DNA of 41,045 nucleotides, from positions 1 through 41,045 of the IMG/VR virus record IMGVR_UViG_3300037223_000017; one strand, 5' to 3'. A program made the translations under genes and the position numbers. This document shows, one piece after another, positions 2,517 to 30,708 of this stretch; positions within the stretch are counted from its first letter, which is position 1; each line of letters begins with the position of its first letter. This stretch comes from a virus. The notes beneath the pieces are model-generated. The model was not told the DNA's origin. It ran no database searches and was given only the letters and a program-made list of their open reading frames with translations.

Positions 2517-3903
2517 TTCACTGGCGCAGATACAGCAAGCGGCGGAAAAAGCTCAGCAAGAGCGCATAAGGCAGCTTGGAGCAATTCGCACACAAAACGC
2601 TGTGGCGCCGGGTGATGCATTACAAAACGCGCTAAATCAATATATGGGGGCGCGTAAGTATTTCTCGGAAGAGAATGCGGCGAAGTCGAAGCAAGCCCTT
2701 GAAGGCGCGCAAACTAATTTACTTGGGATTCAAGGACGCACCGCCGAGGCGGAAGAGAATGCAAACAATGCCCTAGATACTAATAGCGGCTTATCTAATC
2801 GTTTGGCCGAAAAGTCGATGCATCTCAAAGGTGAACAATCCGATATCAATGTTGCGCAACAAAGTGCTGACACCCAAAAGCTTCAAGTCAAGAATCAATA
2901 TGCCGCAGAAATGGCGAAGTATGGTCTTGAGAGCAAGCAATTCATGGATGCTCATACCAGCACATTGCATGATGAAATGATGCGCGATATCGACGGCGCA
3001 ACGAATATACCTGACCCGCAAGCGCGCGCTAAGCGCTTCCAAGAGATTTCAAATCAATACACACAGCAAGGACTTTCTCCTCAAACGGTAAGCAGCGCCG
3101 TTACCTTCGGCGCAGCGTCAAAGGCAAAGCTAGACGCGCAAACAAAGAAGGCAAACGACCAGCTATTCTATCTTTCCGACCCAACGGGTGTTGCTCTGCA
3201 AAACTCGGTTAAAGATACCGTTGGGGACAACACCTATCTCAACGGGCTCAAATCCGCGCAAGATAAGTTCAAGCAAAACGTCTATGTGCCAGGCGTAGGT
3301 ATCGGAACGAATCTAAATGAGAACACGGCCGCCATGGCCGCGCGCAAAGCCGCCGCTAATCTTATGATTCAAAGCGGAGACGCCAAAGACGCGGCCGCAG
3401 GACGCATGCTTCTCGATGATGGGACATCATGGGAGGATGCCAATAAGATTATCCAAGACACCTTGGATTCTGGAACATCAAGGCTTGCAAATTCTTGGCA
3501 GACTATAAAGAGCGGCATCCCGCCTAAATACACCGATCCCAACAGTCCTGATTACAAAGAAACCGTAGGCTCCACTGAAAATATGGTTCAGCAAACGCTG
3601 AAAAAGCTTAGTAACAAGCCGGTTCCGGCGAACACGCCAGATCAAGCCGGCACCGTTGATTTGACGAGGCGAGGCGGAGCCGCGCCGCCATCGGGAGCCG
3701 CCGGCGGCCCACCGCCCGCAGGTGCGCAAGCTCAGGCGCCCGCACTACCGCCGGCAACTGCGCAGGCACTTCAGCAAAAGAAAGCCGCCGCCGCCGCCGC
3801 GCAAGACGCCGCCGCGCCCGGAACCGCCACGGCTGAACCAAGCGAGCAAGAGACGCCGCCGATTCAGCCTGAACCATCCGACCTTATGGGCGGTGAAGAA
3901 TAA
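2509..3903 (+). CDS. Coiled-coil internal virion/ejection-like protein
   Basis: 464 residues. Residues ~1-140 are highly polar and helical (Q, E, K, A repeats), consistent with coiled coil. The middle is mixed, and from ~370 the chain is low-complexity P/A/G/Q with an acidic C-terminus. Large helical, low-complexity proteins between the tail hub and portal of podoviruses are often DNA-ejection or internal virion proteins, and that role is inferred here. The stop overlaps the next start as TAATG. No catalytic motif is visible. Confidence 0.7.
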   Translation: MADSLAQIQQAAEKAQQERIRQLGAIRTQNAVAPGDALQNALNQYMGARKYFSEENAAKSKQALEGAQTNLLGIQGRTAEAEENANNALDTNSGLSNRLAEKSMHLKGEQSDINVAQQSADTQKLQVKNQYAAEMAKYGLESKQFMDAHTSTLHDEMMRDIDGATNIPDPQARAKRFQEISNQYTQQGLSPQTVSSAVTFGAASKAKLDAQTKKANDQLFYLSDPTGVALQNSVKDTVGDNTYLNGLKSAQDKFKQNVYVPGVGIGTNLNENTAAMAARKAAANLMIQSGDAKDAAAGRMLLDDGTSWEDANKIIQDTLDSGTSRLANSWQTIKSGIPPKYTDPNSPDYKETVGSTENMVQQTLKKLSNKPVPANTPDQAGTVDLTRRGGAAPPSGAAGGPPPAGAQAQAPALPPATAQALQQKKAAAAAAQDAAAPGTATAEPSEQETPPIQPEPSDLMGGEE

Positions 3904-6783: not shown

Positions 6784-7071
6784 ATGGACCCGTCTCAAAA
6801 GCAAGTTTGCCTTATCATGGTTCAATCAATTCAAGCGCAGCTTGTCGGATTGATGAACGTCATTGGCGTCAATGCCGCGCCTCATGCGCCGGCGCCAAAT
6901 GCTTTTCCATCTCAACCGCAAGCCCCTGAACATCTCACAGACGAGGAAGAAGAGACGGTTGAGCGCGAACTAGAACAGGTTCGTATAGAAGCGTCTCGTG
7001 AATCAGATAGCATCCAAGCTCGCTGGAAGGCTCAACGCGAAGCAATGGAAGAAGCGGGGACTTTCGCTTGA
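6784..7071 (+). CDS. Small acidic protein upstream of portal
   Basis: I choose ATG 6784, with TTGGAG about 6 bases upstream, over an in-frame TTG at 6754 that lies inside the terminator. The product is 95 residues: an N-terminal helix, a P/A-rich linker, then a strongly acidic helical segment (LTDEEEETVERELEQVRIEA). Its stop overlaps the portal start (TTGA). Function unknown; a portal-associated assembly factor is possible from the coupling. Confidence 0.7.
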   Translation: MDPSQKQVCLIMVQSIQAQLVGLMNVIGVNAAPHAPAPNAFPSQPQAPEHLTDEEEETVERELEQVRIEASRESDSIQARWKAQREAMEEAGTFA

Positions 7072-9560
7072 GCAATGCGCCAAATATCGGACCAAATGCG
7101 CAACAAGCCGCAGATCGGGCTAAACAATTCGCTAGTGAATTGCCGTGGAATCAGACCGATGTAGAAAAACTTGGCCCCTGTATCATGAAATGGCAAGAGG
7201 ACCATGAACCTTTCTACAAGCGGTGGTCTGAGACTTGGTATAATAATTTCCAGTTTATTTATGGTAATCAGTCTGTACGTTGGTCAAGACGCTACGGCTA
7301 CGCTGTTGACATCGACTTTCTTCAACGTCTTCCTGCTCTTAATCAGCGCGCTCAGACCAACATCGCGCGAATAGTCGTCGAAGCATTGTCGGCGATGATA
7401 TACGCCAACCTCCCAGAATGGGATGTTGAAGCATCCGACGAATCAAGCATCAAGGGTAAGCGCATGAAGCGCATTATCCAAAAGATACTTGATGCCTATA
7501 TGATTCGCCTATGCGGTGATGATGTCATCAGCAACGCGGCTCGCATTTATACGACGTTCGGCCAATTTGCGTTGAAGCTCGATTGGAACCAAATGGGTGG
7601 CCATCAAATCGAGGTTCCCAAGTGGCAGAAAAATCGTGCTCCCGTCATGACCGATTGGATGGCGCCAAACCAAGCAACTTTCGGTCTTTTGGATATCCCT
7701 ACGCAGGCGACGGATGCCCAGGGGCAGCCTCTCTTCGAGGAGCGCTGGGAGCCAGTGCTTGACCAAATGGGCAAGCAAATCATCGACAAGTTTTTTGCTG
7801 GCGATGTGCGTATGCAGGCACTCACGCCATTCCAATACAAGCGCCGAGTTGATTCGACGGGGATGTATGATACAGGTTCCGTTGACGAGATTCGCCTTCT
7901 TGATTACGACAAATATCTAGATGAATATGGCCAAACTCCCGGCCGCACTAAGTTCTATGACCAAGTTCAACCCGTCTATACCAACCCCGCGATATACCGT
8001 CTTGCGGTACGTCATTTCATGCGTATGCAATTTACTACGCCACCGGGGTTAAACGAACTTTATGACAGACCGGAGAATGTTTACAAGAGCGCTTTATTTA
8101 AGAATAAAGTCCTGGTCATTGAACGTTACGACGCACCTCACCCTATCAAGTGGCCGCTTGGGCGCAGGACTATCGTTTGTAATGGTGAGGCTACCCATGT
8201 CACCGTCCCGCAATACAATACGGGTAAATTAGACGGCTGGCACCCTTATGTAGAAGGCCAGTGGCTCGCCATTGCGCCATCTTCTATGTCTATGGGACCG
8301 ATGAATGACGTTGTTCAGAAGAACCGCGAATTGAACATTGCCGATTCGCTTATTGCTACCGCGCTGCGGCGCAACATGGGGAGCCAACTACTTGTCACGC
8401 CCGGTAAAGGTTTTGACCCTCAAAGATTTACAGGAGAGCCAGGGCTCATCCACGAAGTGTTGGACGTTTACGGCGCAAGATGGCTCCACGACGACATGCC
8501 TTTGCCATCGGTGCTCCCAGCTCTCAGACAATCTTACAAGGATGACGTCTATGACGTCAGTGGCGCAGGCGACGCGCTCAGGGGAGAAAGAAGCCCCGGC
8601 GCGCCAAGCGGCTACGCGCAGCGAATCATTGAAGAGCGCGAAGAGCGTCGACTTGCCCCGGCCAGAAAAACCTTCGAGAAAGCCATCGCCGGAGGAGCTG
8701 AAAAACTAATCTGTTGTTTGAAATCAAACGTCGTTCAGCTTGACAAAAATGTCATGGGATATCTCATGCGCGCAGCGGCGGGTGATTTCACACAGAGCGA
8801 CGTTATCGCTTTCCTGTCAACGCCGTTGACATATGGCGTCGAGATCAACATTGAAGCCGATTCGATGCATTTGCGCTCAAAGGCGACGCAGCAAGCTACC
8901 GTAAACGACATGGCGAGCGGCAATCCGGCGGTTCAGCAACGTTTACAGCAAAATCCCAAGGCTCTTGACGAATATCTCAAGTTCTTCGATGCGCAAGTGC
9001 TACGCGATGAATCATCCGGCCACCGCGACCGGGCGCAGCAAGAGAACGAGCAATTCATGGATTTGATGCGCCTTGGTCCACAGGGCGCTCAAGGTGGTAT
9101 GCCTACCGTCATCACGGCGGATATCGACCAAATCCACATCGAAGAACACACGGATTTCCTGATTCAGAATGCTTCCGAGATTATGCGCAATCCGGCATTC
9201 TTCAAGACGGTTCAAGACCATATCAATCACCATGTCCTAGCCATGCAAGAGAAGGCGAAGACATTGCCGCCTGGTACGTCACTAGCTACGCCGCAACTGG
9301 AAGCTCAAAGTGGCGCTCAGCCACCGCCAAATGTTCAAACTATATTTGCTCAAAAGCAGCAAATGAACCAACAAGCCGCTGCTGCGCAGCAACAAGCCGC
9401 TGCTCAACAGCCTGCACGCCAAGGCGCCAGCGGCGCGCCCAAGGCTCCTACTGGACCAGCAAAGCCTGGTATGATGGGAAGTGGGGGACCACCCCAACAA
9501 GGTACACAAACGCCGGCCGCCAATATGCAAGCGGCCAATAAGCCGGGGACACCAAAATGA
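7068..9560 (+). CDS. Portal protein (podovirus type)
   Basis: 830 residues, with a TTG start that overlaps the preceding stop by 4 bases. The N-terminal half has the composition and layout of large podoviral portals: an early helical region (KWQEDHEPFYKRWSETWYNN), LNQRAQTNIARIVVEALSA, then wing-like segments. It later has GYAQRIIEEREERRLAPARKTFEKAI, which resembles the long portal stem helix. The last ~100 residues are a Q/A/P-rich tail with repeated QQAAAQQ. The protein would form the dodecameric DNA entry ring at the head vertex. The call rests on overall resemblance, not on a diagnostic motif. The gene lies far from terminase in linear order, which is unusual. Confidence 0.75.
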   Translation: MSNAPNIGPNAQQAADRAKQFASELPWNQTDVEKLGPCIMKWQEDHEPFYKRWSETWYNNFQFIYGNQSVRWSRRYGYAVDIDFLQRLPALNQRAQTNIARIVVEALSAMIYANLPEWDVEASDESSIKGKRMKRIIQKILDAYMIRLCGDDVISNAARIYTTFGQFALKLDWNQMGGHQIEVPKWQKNRAPVMTDWMAPNQATFGLLDIPTQATDAQGQPLFEERWEPVLDQMGKQIIDKFFAGDVRMQALTPFQYKRRVDSTGMYDTGSVDEIRLLDYDKYLDEYGQTPGRTKFYDQVQPVYTNPAIYRLAVRHFMRMQFTTPPGLNELYDRPENVYKSALFKNKVLVIERYDAPHPIKWPLGRRTIVCNGEATHVTVPQYNTGKLDGWHPYVEGQWLAIAPSSMSMGPMNDVVQKNRELNIADSLIATALRRNMGSQLLVTPGKGFDPQRFTGEPGLIHEVLDVYGARWLHDDMPLPSVLPALRQSYKDDVYDVSGAGDALRGERSPGAPSGYAQRIIEEREERRLAPARKTFEKAIAGGAEKLICCLKSNVVQLDKNVMGYLMRAAAGDFTQSDVIAFLSTPLTYGVEINIEADSMHLRSKATQQATVNDMASGNPAVQQRLQQNPKALDEYLKFFDAQVLRDESSGHRDRAQQENEQFMDLMRLGPQGAQGGMPTVITADIDQIHIEEHTDFLIQNASEIMRNPAFFKTVQDHINHHVLAMQEKAKTLPPGTSLATPQLEAQSGAQPPPNVQTIFAQKQQMNQQAAAAQQQAAAQQPARQGASGAPKAPTGPAKPGMMGSGGPPQQGTQTPAANMQAANKPGTPK

Positions 9561-13447: not shown

Positions 13448-13839
13448 AAAAGCTACTTTTAATATGCCTCATCATGTTCAGCGGCATCGCCTCTGCGACG
13501 CCCTATCCCATTGGCTCCTCGCCGACCGTTATCGTCAACGCCGCCAGTATGACCTCGACGGTTACGAGCCCGGTGATACAGATTTGGGGCGTCGCGCAGA
13601 TTGATTGCCAAGAGCTATGGACGGGATCGCCAAGCGGCACGTTCGCCTTTTATGTCAGCGAAGACCAAGTAAACTGGGACCCCTTGACGCTATCGACGAC
13701 CATCACGGCTAGCGGCTCCGCCGGCCATGGCACCATGGAACTTATGGGACTTGCCGCGCCATACTTCCAAGTAGTCTATACGCCATCGGCTGGCACCGGA
13801 TCGCTAACCATCACTTGCTACGCGAAGTTTAGAACATGA
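13444..13839 (+). CDS. Secreted small beta-rich protein
   Basis: 131 residues. It begins [20 protein letters not shown], a clear Sec signal peptide with A-S-A cleavage. The mature part is beta-rich with two Cys (IDCQELW, ITCYAKF). The ATG overlaps the previous stop by 4 bases and its own stop overlaps the next start by 4, so the three exported proteins are translationally linked. Function unknown. Confidence 0.7.
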
Positions 13840-15929
13840 AAAAAATCATACTCGCTATTTTCTTGCTAGCAACGGTGGCAGACGCGCAACAATATGCTAC
13901 CTGGCCGGTGGTAAGCGGCGGCGGCGGCGGCTCCGGGACTGTTACTAGCATAACGGCTGGGACTGGGCTAAGCGGCGGCACAATCACAACTAGCGGCACA
14001 ATTAGCCTGGCGATTCCAGTTACCGTACCTGATGGCGGTAGCGGCGATACGTCCATTACTGCAAATGCAGTAATCGTCGGGAATGGCACTAATCCTCTAG
14101 CCATTGTGACAAACAATGCTTCGGCGACCAATGAATTTTTGACGCAATCAAGCTCAGGAGCGCCGGCATGGGCGGCGCTGGTGTCTGGGGACATCCCGAA
14201 CAACGCCGCGAACACGAGCGGATCAGCGGCTTCATTTACCGGGAGCTTATCCGGCGACGTTACCGGAACGCAAAGCGCCACGGCCATTGCGGCCAATGCA
14301 GTTACAAACGCCAAGCTAGCTCAAATGCCATCCAATACGTTTAAGGGGAATAATACCGGATCGACCGCGAATGCTATAGACATGACGGCGGCTCAAGCCG
14401 TGACAATCCTTCCAACGGTTGTTGGGGATAGCGGGAGCGGCGGCGCGCAGGGGGTTATCCCGGCTCCGCCGGCTGGTTCTTATGCGGCCGGTGATTACTT
14501 GCTCGCTAATGGAACTTGGGCATATGTTGACCAATCGAAACCGTATTACCAGCCATTTACGATGATAAGTAAAACGGCTAACCCGACCGCGTTGTCAAAA
14601 ATTAACAATGTCCTGGTTTATACCGGCGTTAATGGGAAAACGTATGCCGTTACAATCGGCGCAGCGTCTTCCACCCTGGCTATCTATGACGCTACCGATC
14701 AAGCCTCCCCTATATTGCTATCGAACATGGCGACACTCCAAGGATCATATAACGCCGTTCATGCTCTAATTTCAGGCGTTGATTACATCATTGTCGCGTC
14801 AAGCGGCGGGTATAACCTATACATTATCAACGTTTCAAATCCGTATTCTCCGACTATAACGACAACGTTCAACTTAACGGCCGCGACGGGCTCGACTTAC
14901 AACATCGCTTATTCAAACGGCATGGTTTATCTAGCTTGCCAAACGGTTGGTTTAAAAGTCGTCGATATCGGCAATGGAATCGGCGGCGGTACGCTAACCG
15001 CTCCAGTTGTTACTTATACCCAAGGTGCTGCAAAATCATTCGGTGTCGTCGTATCTGGAACTAACCTATTTACTACGCAATATTCGACGAGCCCGTACGC
15101 TACGCGCCTGATTAATTCATGGACGCTAACAGGAGCCGGAACCGTTGGTGTACCCTCCTTGGTGCAAAGCCTCACGCTTCCAGGACTAGGCGAAGCTCTT
15201 GCCGTAAGCATAAACGCCAGCGCAACAACGGCATTTGTCTCTATAAATACAGGCGTGCAGCAACTAGATGTAGTGGACATCACTACACCATCGGCGATGA
15301 CAAATATTACTCAAGTTAGTATGCCAACTGGATACACAATTTCCGCCGCAATGGCAGCGGCTCCTTCCGGTAACTACGTTTTTATGCCGGTTGGATCGAA
15401 TGCTACTTACGGCGGCGCGATACTCATGTATGACTTCACCAATCGCAGCGCTCCTTTTCTGATAAATACAGCCTATGAAAATATCGCCACATCGCCATTT
15501 GGCGGTATCGCTATACAAGGAGGCTACATCTTCGCCGGTGATTATGGCGCTGGCGGCGGTAGCGCGGGATCTCTGGATATCTTTACGCTACCATTACTTA
15601 CCCCGACATCTGGAGCTGAGACTGTTTCGACAATATCGGTTAAGGGTTCGATAAACTTTTCAACAGTACAAACTTCCGTAAGCGGTTCAACTTCTGGAAC
15701 CGCTGTTTTCAGCCAGCCATTCCAAGGCTCGTCCTATATGAAGGTAATCGTTTATTGCAACGCATTGCTGGGAACGGCATCCTATACCTTCCCAACAGCT
15801 TTCGCGAATACGCCGGCCATCGTATCGACCAACGGCCCGGCGTCAACGGTGGTCACTTCTCTATCAAATACGGCCGTAACGATTACGGGCGCCACAACTA
15901 CCGGATTCATCATTTTGGAAGGTTACTAA
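13836..15929 (+). CDS. Exported fibre/beta-propeller protein
   Basis: 697 residues. The N-terminus [18 protein letters not shown] is a Sec signal peptide. A glycine run is followed by [19 protein letters not shown] and a second fibre-type segment, motifs common in phage tail fibres. Residues ~240-590 hold repeated blade-like units ([47 protein letters not shown]) resembling LVIVD-type beta-propellers. The C-terminus is a short beta domain ending GFIILEGY. A signal peptide on a fibre-like protein is unusual and suggests export to the host surface or periplasm. Confidence 0.7.
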
Positions 15930-27972: not shown

Positions 27973-28028
27973 GTAGAGAAATATGGGCGCACATGGAACA
28001 TGGCGCGATATCTAATCCGTCTTCTTAA
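27969..28028 (+). pseudogene. Fragment resembling HNH endonuclease C-terminal end
   Basis: A 19-codon ORF that overlaps the endolysin stop (ATGA) reads MSREIWAHMEHGAISNPSS. Bases 27978-27992 (GAAATATGGGCGCAC) match the end of the HNH gene at 29021-29035 at 14 of 15 positions, in the same reading frame (KKIWAH against REIWAH). It is probably a remnant of an HNH gene tail; too short to be certain. Confidence 0.45.
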
Positions 28029-28440
28029 AAATCCACGCGCTTGTTTGTACTGGGTTTCCCTCTTTATCAAACAAGTCTTCTCCAGGATTGCCGAGGCTCT
28101 TGGCGGTGCGTAGCATCTTCCTCGCCGCCATCCCGGCTTTCAGGAGTTCCGTGGCCGCCTTGATATCGGTCGATTCCCACCGATCAGACCCCATCTCATA
28201 AGTCTCGCCAACCTTGCGCATCTCGGGTTCTAGCGCGGCCTTCTTCAATACCTTGAGGGAAACGCGCATGGCCTCGTCGGCAAATGAACGTAGGCTCTCG
28301 TTATCCTCTTCCTCACGGGAGGTAAGATGTGCGCGGGCCTCGTCTTCGGACATGCCGGCCTCGGCGGCGGCCACCGCCAATGTTTTACCACTGGCGAGCT
28401 TGCGGCGAAGCGCGGCGAAGTCTTTGGACGATTGTTCCAT
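28012..28440 (-). CDS. DNA-binding protein, possible small terminase subunit
   Basis: 142 residues. ALRRKLASGKTLAVAAAEAGMSEDEARAHL is HTH-like. A helical middle and DIKAATELLKAGMAARKM follow, with the C-terminal SAWIFKKTD. This order (HTH, then an oligomerising helical part) is seen in many phage small terminases, and no other candidate is evident. It lies on the strand opposite terL and ~6 kb away, so the call stays tentative. Confidence 0.45.
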   Translation of the reverse strand: MEQSSKDFAALRRKLASGKTLAVAAAEAGMSEDEARAHLTSREEEDNESLRSFADEAMRVSLKVLKKAALEPEMRKVGETYEMGSDRWESTDIKAATELLKAGMAARKMLRTAKSLGNPGEDLFDKEGNPVQTSAWIFKKTD

Positions 28441-28490: not shown

Positions 28491-29045
28491 ATGAAAGATA
28501 CCCAACCAGGCGAGATTTGGGAAGTTATGATGGAAGGCGAAGGACTTTTTATCAGCAACTTTGGACGAATCTATCGGGAGGCGAAGGTTGTCACCGTTGT
28601 TAGACAGGGAAAAATAGTTGAACGTTCTATGCCAGCAAAGTTTCTCTCAACGGAAGCACGTAATGAAAAAGGCTATGTCATCGTCAAAGTGAGCGGCGAT
28701 GCAAAGACCGCGCGATTGCACCGTCTTGTCGCTAAATACTTCCTTCCTAATCCAGAGAATAAGGCGCAGATCAATCATAAGGACACGAACAAGACGAATA
28801 ACCGTGCCGATAATCTTGAATGGTCTACAAACCAGGAAAACCGTGACCATGCCGTTGTCCATGACCTTCACGCCAAAGGAGAAGGACATGGAAATAGCAT
28901 TCTTACAGATGAAATTATTTTTAAAATTAGAGAGTTATATAAAGATGGACAAATGACGCAAAAGGCCATAGGCGAGATTTTCGGCATCAATGACAGCATA
29001 GTTTCGCGCATCATAAATAAGAAAATATGGGCGCATGTACGCTAA
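28491..29045 (+). CDS. Free-standing NUMOD4-HNH homing endonuclease
   Basis: 184 residues; ATG with GGAG 7 bases upstream. NUMOD4-like N-terminus GEIWEV-GLFISNFGRIYR (7-28). The HNH core is RLHRLVAKYFLPNP (75-88), INHKDTNKTNN (94-104) and DNLEWSTNQEN (107-117), with H77, N95-H96 and N104/N108 in the expected places. The C-terminal HTH is LTDEIIFKIRELY, then KAIGEIFGINDSIVSRII and KKIWAHVR. Such enzymes nick or cut a specific site to spread introns or themselves. The gene ends 122 bases before the intron-split capsid gene, so the intron-lacking capsid gene is its likely target (inference). Confidence 0.9.
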   Translation: MKDTQPGEIWEVMMEGEGLFISNFGRIYREAKVVTVVRQGKIVERSMPAKFLSTEARNEKGYVIVKVSGDAKTARLHRLVAKYFLPNPENKAQINHKDTNKTNNRADNLEWSTNQENRDHAVVHDLHAKGEGHGNSILTDEIIFKIRELYKDGQMTQKAIGEIFGINDSIVSRIINKKIWAHVR

Positions 29046-29143: not shown

Positions 29144-29167
29144 TATAAGCTAGGGAGGCTTGAGGAT

Positions 29168-30708
29168 ATGGCGGGAGTCACATTTAGTGATCTTCAATCA
29201 TGGGGTGAATAGCTTGCCCTCTCTTAGAGCAATCTAAGAGTTCACTCTGGGGAAAATCGGTGGACGCTGAAACGCGAATACCGAGGTAAGCCAGGAAACT
29301 AAAATAACCTGGCCACCGTAACGCATACCGGATGAACCTCGAAAGAGAATATAACTCCGGCAAGAGTCCCCGGCATCCCAAGCGGATGAAAATGTATGCT
29401 GAGCTTACGAGAAAAACAATCGTAAGAAGCTAGGGATAAAAAGCCCAAGCGATAACAATACTGAACCTAAAAGAATTATACGACGGCGACCTGACCTTCC
29501 AGGAAAACATCATGAACTCGTATTTCAATACGATTCGTCATGCTGGCAAGGATGAGGTTGAATTCGACGGCGCGGCGTGGAACGTCGGCGTCACATTTCA
29601 GTTGAATGAAAGCTACGGCGCCAAGAACGACGGCGAGCGCTTGCCGGACCCCAACTACCAAAAGGGTGTCTTCGCGCAATACGCCTCGAAACTCATGTAC
29701 TCGCAAATCGAGGCGACGACCTACGCCGCGACTCGCGGTTATAAGAACGGCCGCCCTACCGGGAAATATCTCGACGACCTTATCAAAGGTACGTTGATGA
29801 CTTTCAGCTCGAACTGCGATTCCGATGCCTATGGCAACGGTCGCGGTTTTCGCGCCACCATCGCCACCGCGACGCCGGCCGCGACGAGCTTCACCGTCAC
29901 CTTCTCGACGCGCCTGCGCGCGGGGATGCAGCTTGATTGGTACGATTCGACCCTTACCGTTTACAAGGGTTCCATCGCCATCTCGCTCCAAGGTGTCGAC
30001 CATATCGCCAAAACCGTATACATCGACACGACCTTTGGTACTGCGGCGGTTCCTGCCACGGCAGCTGCTAACGACGTCCTTGTAGTGTACGGCGCGCTGG
30101 CGCCGGGTGAACCGTCCGATGGCCGCCATATGGCCGGTTATACCCGCGTCACGGATAACACCGTATCGCTTGGCGGCCTATCGCCCAGCAACTACGCGCT
30201 GTGGCAAGCCGTCAATATCAACGCCGGCCTCGCCAACCCGAACCAAGAACTCCTGCAACAAGTCCATGACCAGTTGCACATCGTTTCGGGCATGTACCCG
30301 GATAAGTTCGTGTTCAACCCGGCTTGGAAGCGCGGCTACTTGAGCGGCTTCCTTGGCCAACGCCGGTTCACGAGCAACACCTTCGACACTGGCGCCAGCG
30401 AACTCACTTGGTCTGCCGTTAAGATGGGCCAAGACGAGAGCAAGAAAAAGCCGGTTAAGATGGAGATGATCGAAGACAAGAACCAGAACCCGGCCATCAC
30501 GTTCATCTATGCCAATGATGCTTGGTGCTTCGCCAGCGATTACGCCAGCGAGCCGCATTTGGCCGATGAAGACGGCGCCGAATTCCGGTTCCGGATTGGC
30601 TTCGATTCCATGCAAGCGTTTGTGAGGTACTGGGGTAATACAGTGGTCAAACAACGCAATGCCCTCGGAATCATAACCAATTGGCAAACCCCCTCAGGTA
30701 CTGTTTAA
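29168..30708 (+). CDS. Major capsid protein, split by a group I intron
   Basis: Exon 1 is 29168-29206 (13 codons, MAGVTFSDLQSWG, with AGGGAGG 12-18 bases upstream). Exon 2 is 29464-30708 (414 codons plus stop, beginning NLKELYDGDLTFQ). Splicing gives 427 residues. The ATG at 29512 alone would drop the N-terminus. The body has capsid-like features: the N-terminal helical segment, GRPTGKYLDDLIKGTLMTFSSN, a G-rich beta domain and a C-terminal FRFRIGFDSMQAFVRYWGNTVV. It is the head-shell gene by length, context and HK97-fold-like layout; the exact family is not certain. Unspliced RNA meets a stop (GAA TAG) one codon after the exon. Confidence 0.85.
29207..29463 (+). ncRNA. Group I self-splicing intron in capsid gene
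   Basis: 257 nt with a complete fold. P1: exon GGGGT (29202-06) with GCCCT (29216-20), U-G at the 5' splice site. P2: CTCTTAGA-GCAA-TCTAAGAG. P3: CTGGGGA (29247) with TCCCCGG (29367). P4: TCGGT/ACCGA. P5: CGC/GCG. P6: GGT/ACC, extended by GCCAGG/CCTGGC. P7: GCATAC (29323) with GTATGC (29394). P7.1/7.2-like hairpins lie at 29329-29360. P8: CATCC/GGATG. P9: CTTACGA/TCGTAAG. The terminal G is at 29463. Extra hairpins between P7 and P3' suggest an IA-type intron. No ORF inside. Both splice sites fall between codons. Confidence 0.85.

Follow-up and report, generated by a model that had tools for sequence, protein, structure and literature searches.

Two questions are raised by the major capsid gene of this virus: where its coding sequence begins, and what the 257 nt behind its thirteenth codon are. 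The window we analyzed is a 41,045-nt stretch of DNA from a metagenomic virus contig of 41 kb. A mechanical ORF caller begins the capsid at 29512 in this window, as the sequence-only reading had said gene finders would, while that reading itself placed the start at 29168 and proposed that a group I intron splits the gene after codon 13.

The capsid gene and its intron-less relatives

The segments at issue are as follows.

29168..29206, plus strand: exon 1, codons 1–13 of the major capsid gene (MAGVTFSDLQSWG), aligned codon by codon with two intron-less relatives
29207..29463, plus strand: predicted group I intron, 257 nt, ORF-less, with a terminal omega-G at 29463 (hold-out covariance model, hold-out HMM, covariation and fold)
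29464..30708, plus strand: exon 2 of the major capsid gene, NLKELYDG... to the stop (phrog_14242 major head protein, E = 3.6e-30)
29512..30708, plus strand: the ORF as a gene finder would call it, 398 aa

When the exon 1 frame is read into the insert, a stop follows after one codon (WGE*), and the exon 2 frame is interrupted by stops upstream of 29464; once joined, the exons are open across 427 aa, in agreement with the earlier claim that stops separate them. A Shine-Dalgarno sequence, AGGGAGG, lies at 29152–29158, 9 nt ahead of the ATG at 29168; a good ribosome site had been assigned to exon 1.

We found two intron-less relatives of this capsid, MW202458 (L001) and IMGVR_UViG_3300044822_000077 (L002), with 57 and 81% protein identity to the window, respectively. 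Their capsids run uninterrupted across the junction as MAGATFSDVESFG-MLKELY and MPGANYAEVQAYG-NLEQLYD, and the window reads MAGVTFSDLQSWG-NLKELYD at the same point, in codon register with both. Since these relatives align over the junction to the codon, its position after codon 13, between codons as originally proposed, is fixed by homology. The same alignment, which had been suggested as a check on the N-terminus, placed exon 1 in register with both proteins, and removing the insert restores the conserved capsid ORF.

It could be argued that a decayed or mobile insertion has truncated the gene and that a shorter capsid is made from 29512 without any need for splicing, given that this ATG has an AGGA 7 nt upstream (29501–29504) and opens a 398-aa ORF. 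However, the Met at 29512 is unconserved, being Lys in L002 and Ala in L001, and both relatives share a conserved exon 1 in matching register. We therefore rejected 29512 as the capsid start on the grounds that its Met is not conserved in the relatives.

Elsewhere in the window, several long plus-strand ORFs between positions 1 and 16000 (e.g., 7068–9560 and 13836–15929) matched no PHROG family at E = 1e-5.

Architecture and covariation of the insert

The following helices were assigned, all on the plus strand.

29202..29220: P1, 29202–29208 with 29214–29220 (fold)
29221..29240: P2, 8 bp (fold; equivalent hairpin in the covariance model alignment)
29247..29373: P3, 29247–29253 with 29367–29373, 7 bp with one G-U (covariation, 47 sequences)
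within 29257..29317: P4, 29257–29261 with 29280–29284, and P5, 29265–29267 with 29274–29276 (covariation, 47 sequences)
within 29257..29317: P6, 29285–29287 with 29315–29317, and P6a, 29290–29295 with 29308–29313 (covariation, 47 sequences)
29321..29400: P7, 29323–29327 with 29395–29399, and 29321 with 29400 across the bulged C29322 (covariation)
29328..29360: P7.1, 29328–29332 with 29356–29360, and P7.2, 29338–29340 with 29345–29347 (IA-type insert between P7 and P3)
29374..29388: P8, 29374–29378 with 29384–29388, 5 bp (covariation)
within 29404..29450: P9, 29404–29410 with 29420–29426, 7 bp (covariation, 100% paired)
within 29404..29450: P9.1, 29429–29435 with 29444–29450, one mismatch (covariation, 99.3% paired)
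29402..29463: P9.0, A29402-G29403 with C29461-U29462, followed by omega-G 29463 as the 3′ splice site (covariation, 112 introns)

Every helix named in the sequence-only reading is present (P1 with its U-G, P2, P3, P7, P8 and P9, and the terminal G at 29463), as are P4, P5, P6, P7.1, P7.2, P9.0 and P9.1, which it had not listed; its description of P10 as weak also held, with 2 bp (AA/UU) at best. In P1, U29206 pairs with a G at the 5′ splice site, and 29214–29220 forms the internal guide strand. The guanosine-binding helix P7 (A[C]GCAUA/UAUGCU), pseudoknotted with P3, comprises 5 bp plus one pair past the bulged C, and its G-C guanosine site is invariant in 47 copies. The presence of P7.1 and P7.2 between P7 and P3 places the intron in subgroup IA. 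The unconstrained minimum free energy (MFE) fold of 29201–29463 had an energy of −81.3 kcal/mol and the group I structure −79.2; on its own, this fold recovered nearly all non-pseudoknotted helices (P1–P6, P7.1, P7.2, P8, P9 and P9.1), and the segment 29190–29480 was more stable than all 200 of its shuffles (z = −4.0).

BLAST relatives of the insert were found in Bacillus, Clostridioides, Staphylococcus and crAss-like phages, a short core pattern occurred in at least 119 stretches of IMG/VR and in 53 genome contigs, and more than 100 contigs of phages and roughly 50 genomes of bacteria have a relative of the intron. Host genes in phages include those for the tape measure, NrdD, terminase and the major head protein; among 30 bacterial loci of the family, 19 have ribonucleotide reductase as the host gene. 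Genes of these types commonly host group I introns, which speaks for the group I assignment. Many genomes of Bacillaceae, Sporosarcina, Lysinibacillus and cyanobacteria have ribonucleotide reductase genes split by the clade (L136–L188).

A covariance model, R1, built from nine relatives with the window copy excluded, detected a single copy in the window at 231.8 bits (E = 1.8e-64) with every modelled pair canonical, a score that reflects shared structure plus sequence rather than blind discovery, as the relatives were gathered partly by similarity to the window. An HMM with the window held out also detected the intron (E = 5e-39). Across 47 diverse copies, 97.5% of cells were paired, compared with 75.4% in shuffles, none of which reached the observed value, and 33–42% in slid controls. 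Both-sided changes occurred in 41 of the 56 pairs, with covariation in each core helix: P3 was 100% paired with two-sided change in six of its seven pairs, P4 was 100% paired, P7 was 100% paired with A-U/G-C exchange at two pairs, and P6, P8 and P9 showed 94–100% pairing with two-sided changes. P7.1 was 98.3% paired with two-sided change in all five pairs; P7.2 was weaker and missing from some copies.

In P9.0, the base before the C of P9 and the base two before the terminal G covaried between G-C and A-U across 112 introns (Fisher P = 6e-17): CTG ends carried G in 17 of 18 copies, and non-CTG ends carried A in 92 of 94. This covariation fixes G29463 as the 3′ splice site. Taken with the intron-less orthologues and the covariation across the wider family, it bears out the earlier claim that a group I intron splits the major capsid gene. 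Core helices that are all intact and covarying are unexpected under decay, and we consider a truncated capsid gene very improbable.

We conclude, with little room for doubt on the modelled structure and the comparisons above, that a small IA-type group I intron without an ORF interrupts this late capsid gene; very probably it splices out to leave an intact capsid protein of 427 aa. In the transcript, with U29206 and G paired in P1, guanosine bound in P7 would attack after U29206, and the 3′ end of exon 1 would then attack after G29463, joining codon 13 to codon 14. The predicted product is the 427-aa major capsid protein including the MAGVTFSDLQSWGNLK peptide, N-terminal processing allowed for. 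The in-frame stop one codon inside the intron may serve to halt ribosomes before they unfold the core.

A clade missed by the standard model

An Rfam Intron_gpI covariance search, which the sequence-only reading had put forward as a check, gave no support: RF00028, whose cut-off is 50 bits, produced no match on the window even at E = 10, and the insert matched no Rfam family of any kind, either at the gathering threshold or at E = 10. RF00028 also missed the sister copies in 13 + 20 further loci, yet it detected other group I introns in those same loci (e.g., L015:2320–2651 at 93.6 bits), and the negative result therefore reflects the model and not the sequence; for the window insert it is a false negative. 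In the reverse direction, R1 detected none of three RF00028-type introns. As neither model detects the introns of the other, the clade is divergent. T4/Twort/SPO1-type group IA2 introns (RF00028) share the P3–P9 plan, P7.1/P7.2, the bulged P7 and the J8/7 layout, but their P7 reads GACUA/UAGUC whereas that of the window clade reads GCAUA/UAUGC. That the Rfam group I model is incomplete has already been published (PMC11878797), and a 2025 intron database takes this model as its starting point (PMC11835236).

The lack of any Rfam match might instead point to a structured RNA of another type, such as a riboswitch, an attenuator or some other cis-acting element where the capsid gene begins. We regard this as exceedingly unlikely, as the P3–P8 and P4–P6 domains, the P3/P7 pseudoknot, the bulged P7, the U-G in P1 and the omega-G with P9.0 are the group I plan, and the family splits many unrelated genes internally, its removal here restoring the orthologous protein. 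An assembly chimera that put a foreign intron into the capsid gene is conceivable for a metagenomic contig but scarcely credible, since a chimera would not be expected to place the insertion in exact codon phase with a working P1 guide, nor to leave an exon 1 matching capsid orthologues on the far side.

Family copies carried by phages of Clostridioides, Staphylococcus and Bacillus, and those within bacterial ribonucleotide reductase genes, match the window intron in core, P7 sequence, P9 and P9.1 but differ in host gene, many having a long P7.2 or ORF insertions. Judged by both profile and alignment, the crAss-like bajarodcaudo virus 1 (PQ006092) and cr128_1 (MT774392) carry introns of this clade near the start of a major capsid gene; their capsid gene and host differ from those of the window, with up to four family copies per locus. 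Four loci of a crAss-like capsid group (L009:1397–2836, annotated as capsid, L024:2715–4711, L097:614–2580 and L109:485–3078) each pack 3–4 copies into roughly 2.6 kb, and HNH or intron-endonuclease ORFs accompany some of them. Another phage contig, L129, contains a HEARO RNA, a Fusobacteriales-1 RNA and a standard RF00028 intron (949–1151, 3129–3247 and 7588–7838), flanked by two copies of the window's intron family.

In phage LL-H, the annotated CDS for the terminase large subunit consists of two joined pieces; there RF00028 scores 22.5 bits (L189:2634–2839), below its cut-off of 50. We tried this gene as a characterized clade member, and R1 did not detect it, so that no member of precisely this clade with experimentally shown splicing was identified.

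The neighbouring HNH gene and known capsid introns

The following two genes precede the capsid gene.

28012..28440, minus strand: flanking syntenic ORF, orthologue of L002:4397–4840 (39% identity, E = 7e-19)
28491..29045, plus strand: HNH homing-type endonuclease gene, 184 aa, I-HmuI-like (PF13392; phrog_59)

The HNH gene, which the sequence-only reading had left out, is intact; it has the minus-strand ORF on one side and the capsid gene on the other, and ends 161 nt before the intron insertion site. In L002, the minus-strand orthologue directly precedes the capsid gene, and both the HNH gene and the intron are absent; this synteny marks the HNH gene of the window as an insertion. L001 likewise lacks both, so that two insertions, 161 nt apart, distinguish the window from the two intron-less relatives. 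A search of IMG/VR for HNH protein orthologues found none, and the best phage matches listed for it were about 40% identical.

The intron encodes no endonuclease of its own, and an ORF-less group I intron beside a free-standing endonuclease gene, the two absent together from both relatives, resembles known collaborative homing systems (PMC3984707, PMC6083498), from which the window differs in that its HNH protein is only a candidate cutter of the intron-less allele. Absence of the HNH gene where the intron is absent suggests, from these two comparisons, an arrangement that fits collaborative homing as described in PMC3984707. It is possible, though we put this forward tentatively, that the HNH protein cuts intron-less capsid alleles and that repair carries both elements over. 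The combined reading, of an HNH–intron collaborative-homing pair at the capsid gene together with a widespread phage and bacterial clade outside Rfam that annotation has largely missed, is one we hold as a speculative proposal.

Capsid-gene introns are already known, and this intron joins a known kind. In the Cluster J mycobacteriophage LittleE, splicing of a capsid intron was proven by RT-PCR and N-terminal sequencing (PMC3706429, which also cites Tuc2009 as a further capsid-gene intron). Like the window intron, that of LittleE is most likely group I, lies in the major capsid gene with U before it and G at its end, and restores the full capsid, but it is 819 bp long with an HNH ORF inside, whereas the window intron is 257 nt, ORF-less and near codon 13, with its HNH gene outside and its splicing predicted rather than proven. 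The less ordinary features here are the clade missed by RF00028 and the HNH endonuclease gene just upstream.

The locus is a further case of a phage tolerating an intron in its most highly expressed gene, which demands very efficient splicing, and the adjoining HNH gene is a candidate for collaborative homing that is open to testing. Since the standard model overlooks this clade, annotation is likely to give a false start or mere fragments wherever the clade interrupts a capsid, tape-measure, terminase or reductase gene, and an HMM or covariance model of the sort made here would recover such genes.
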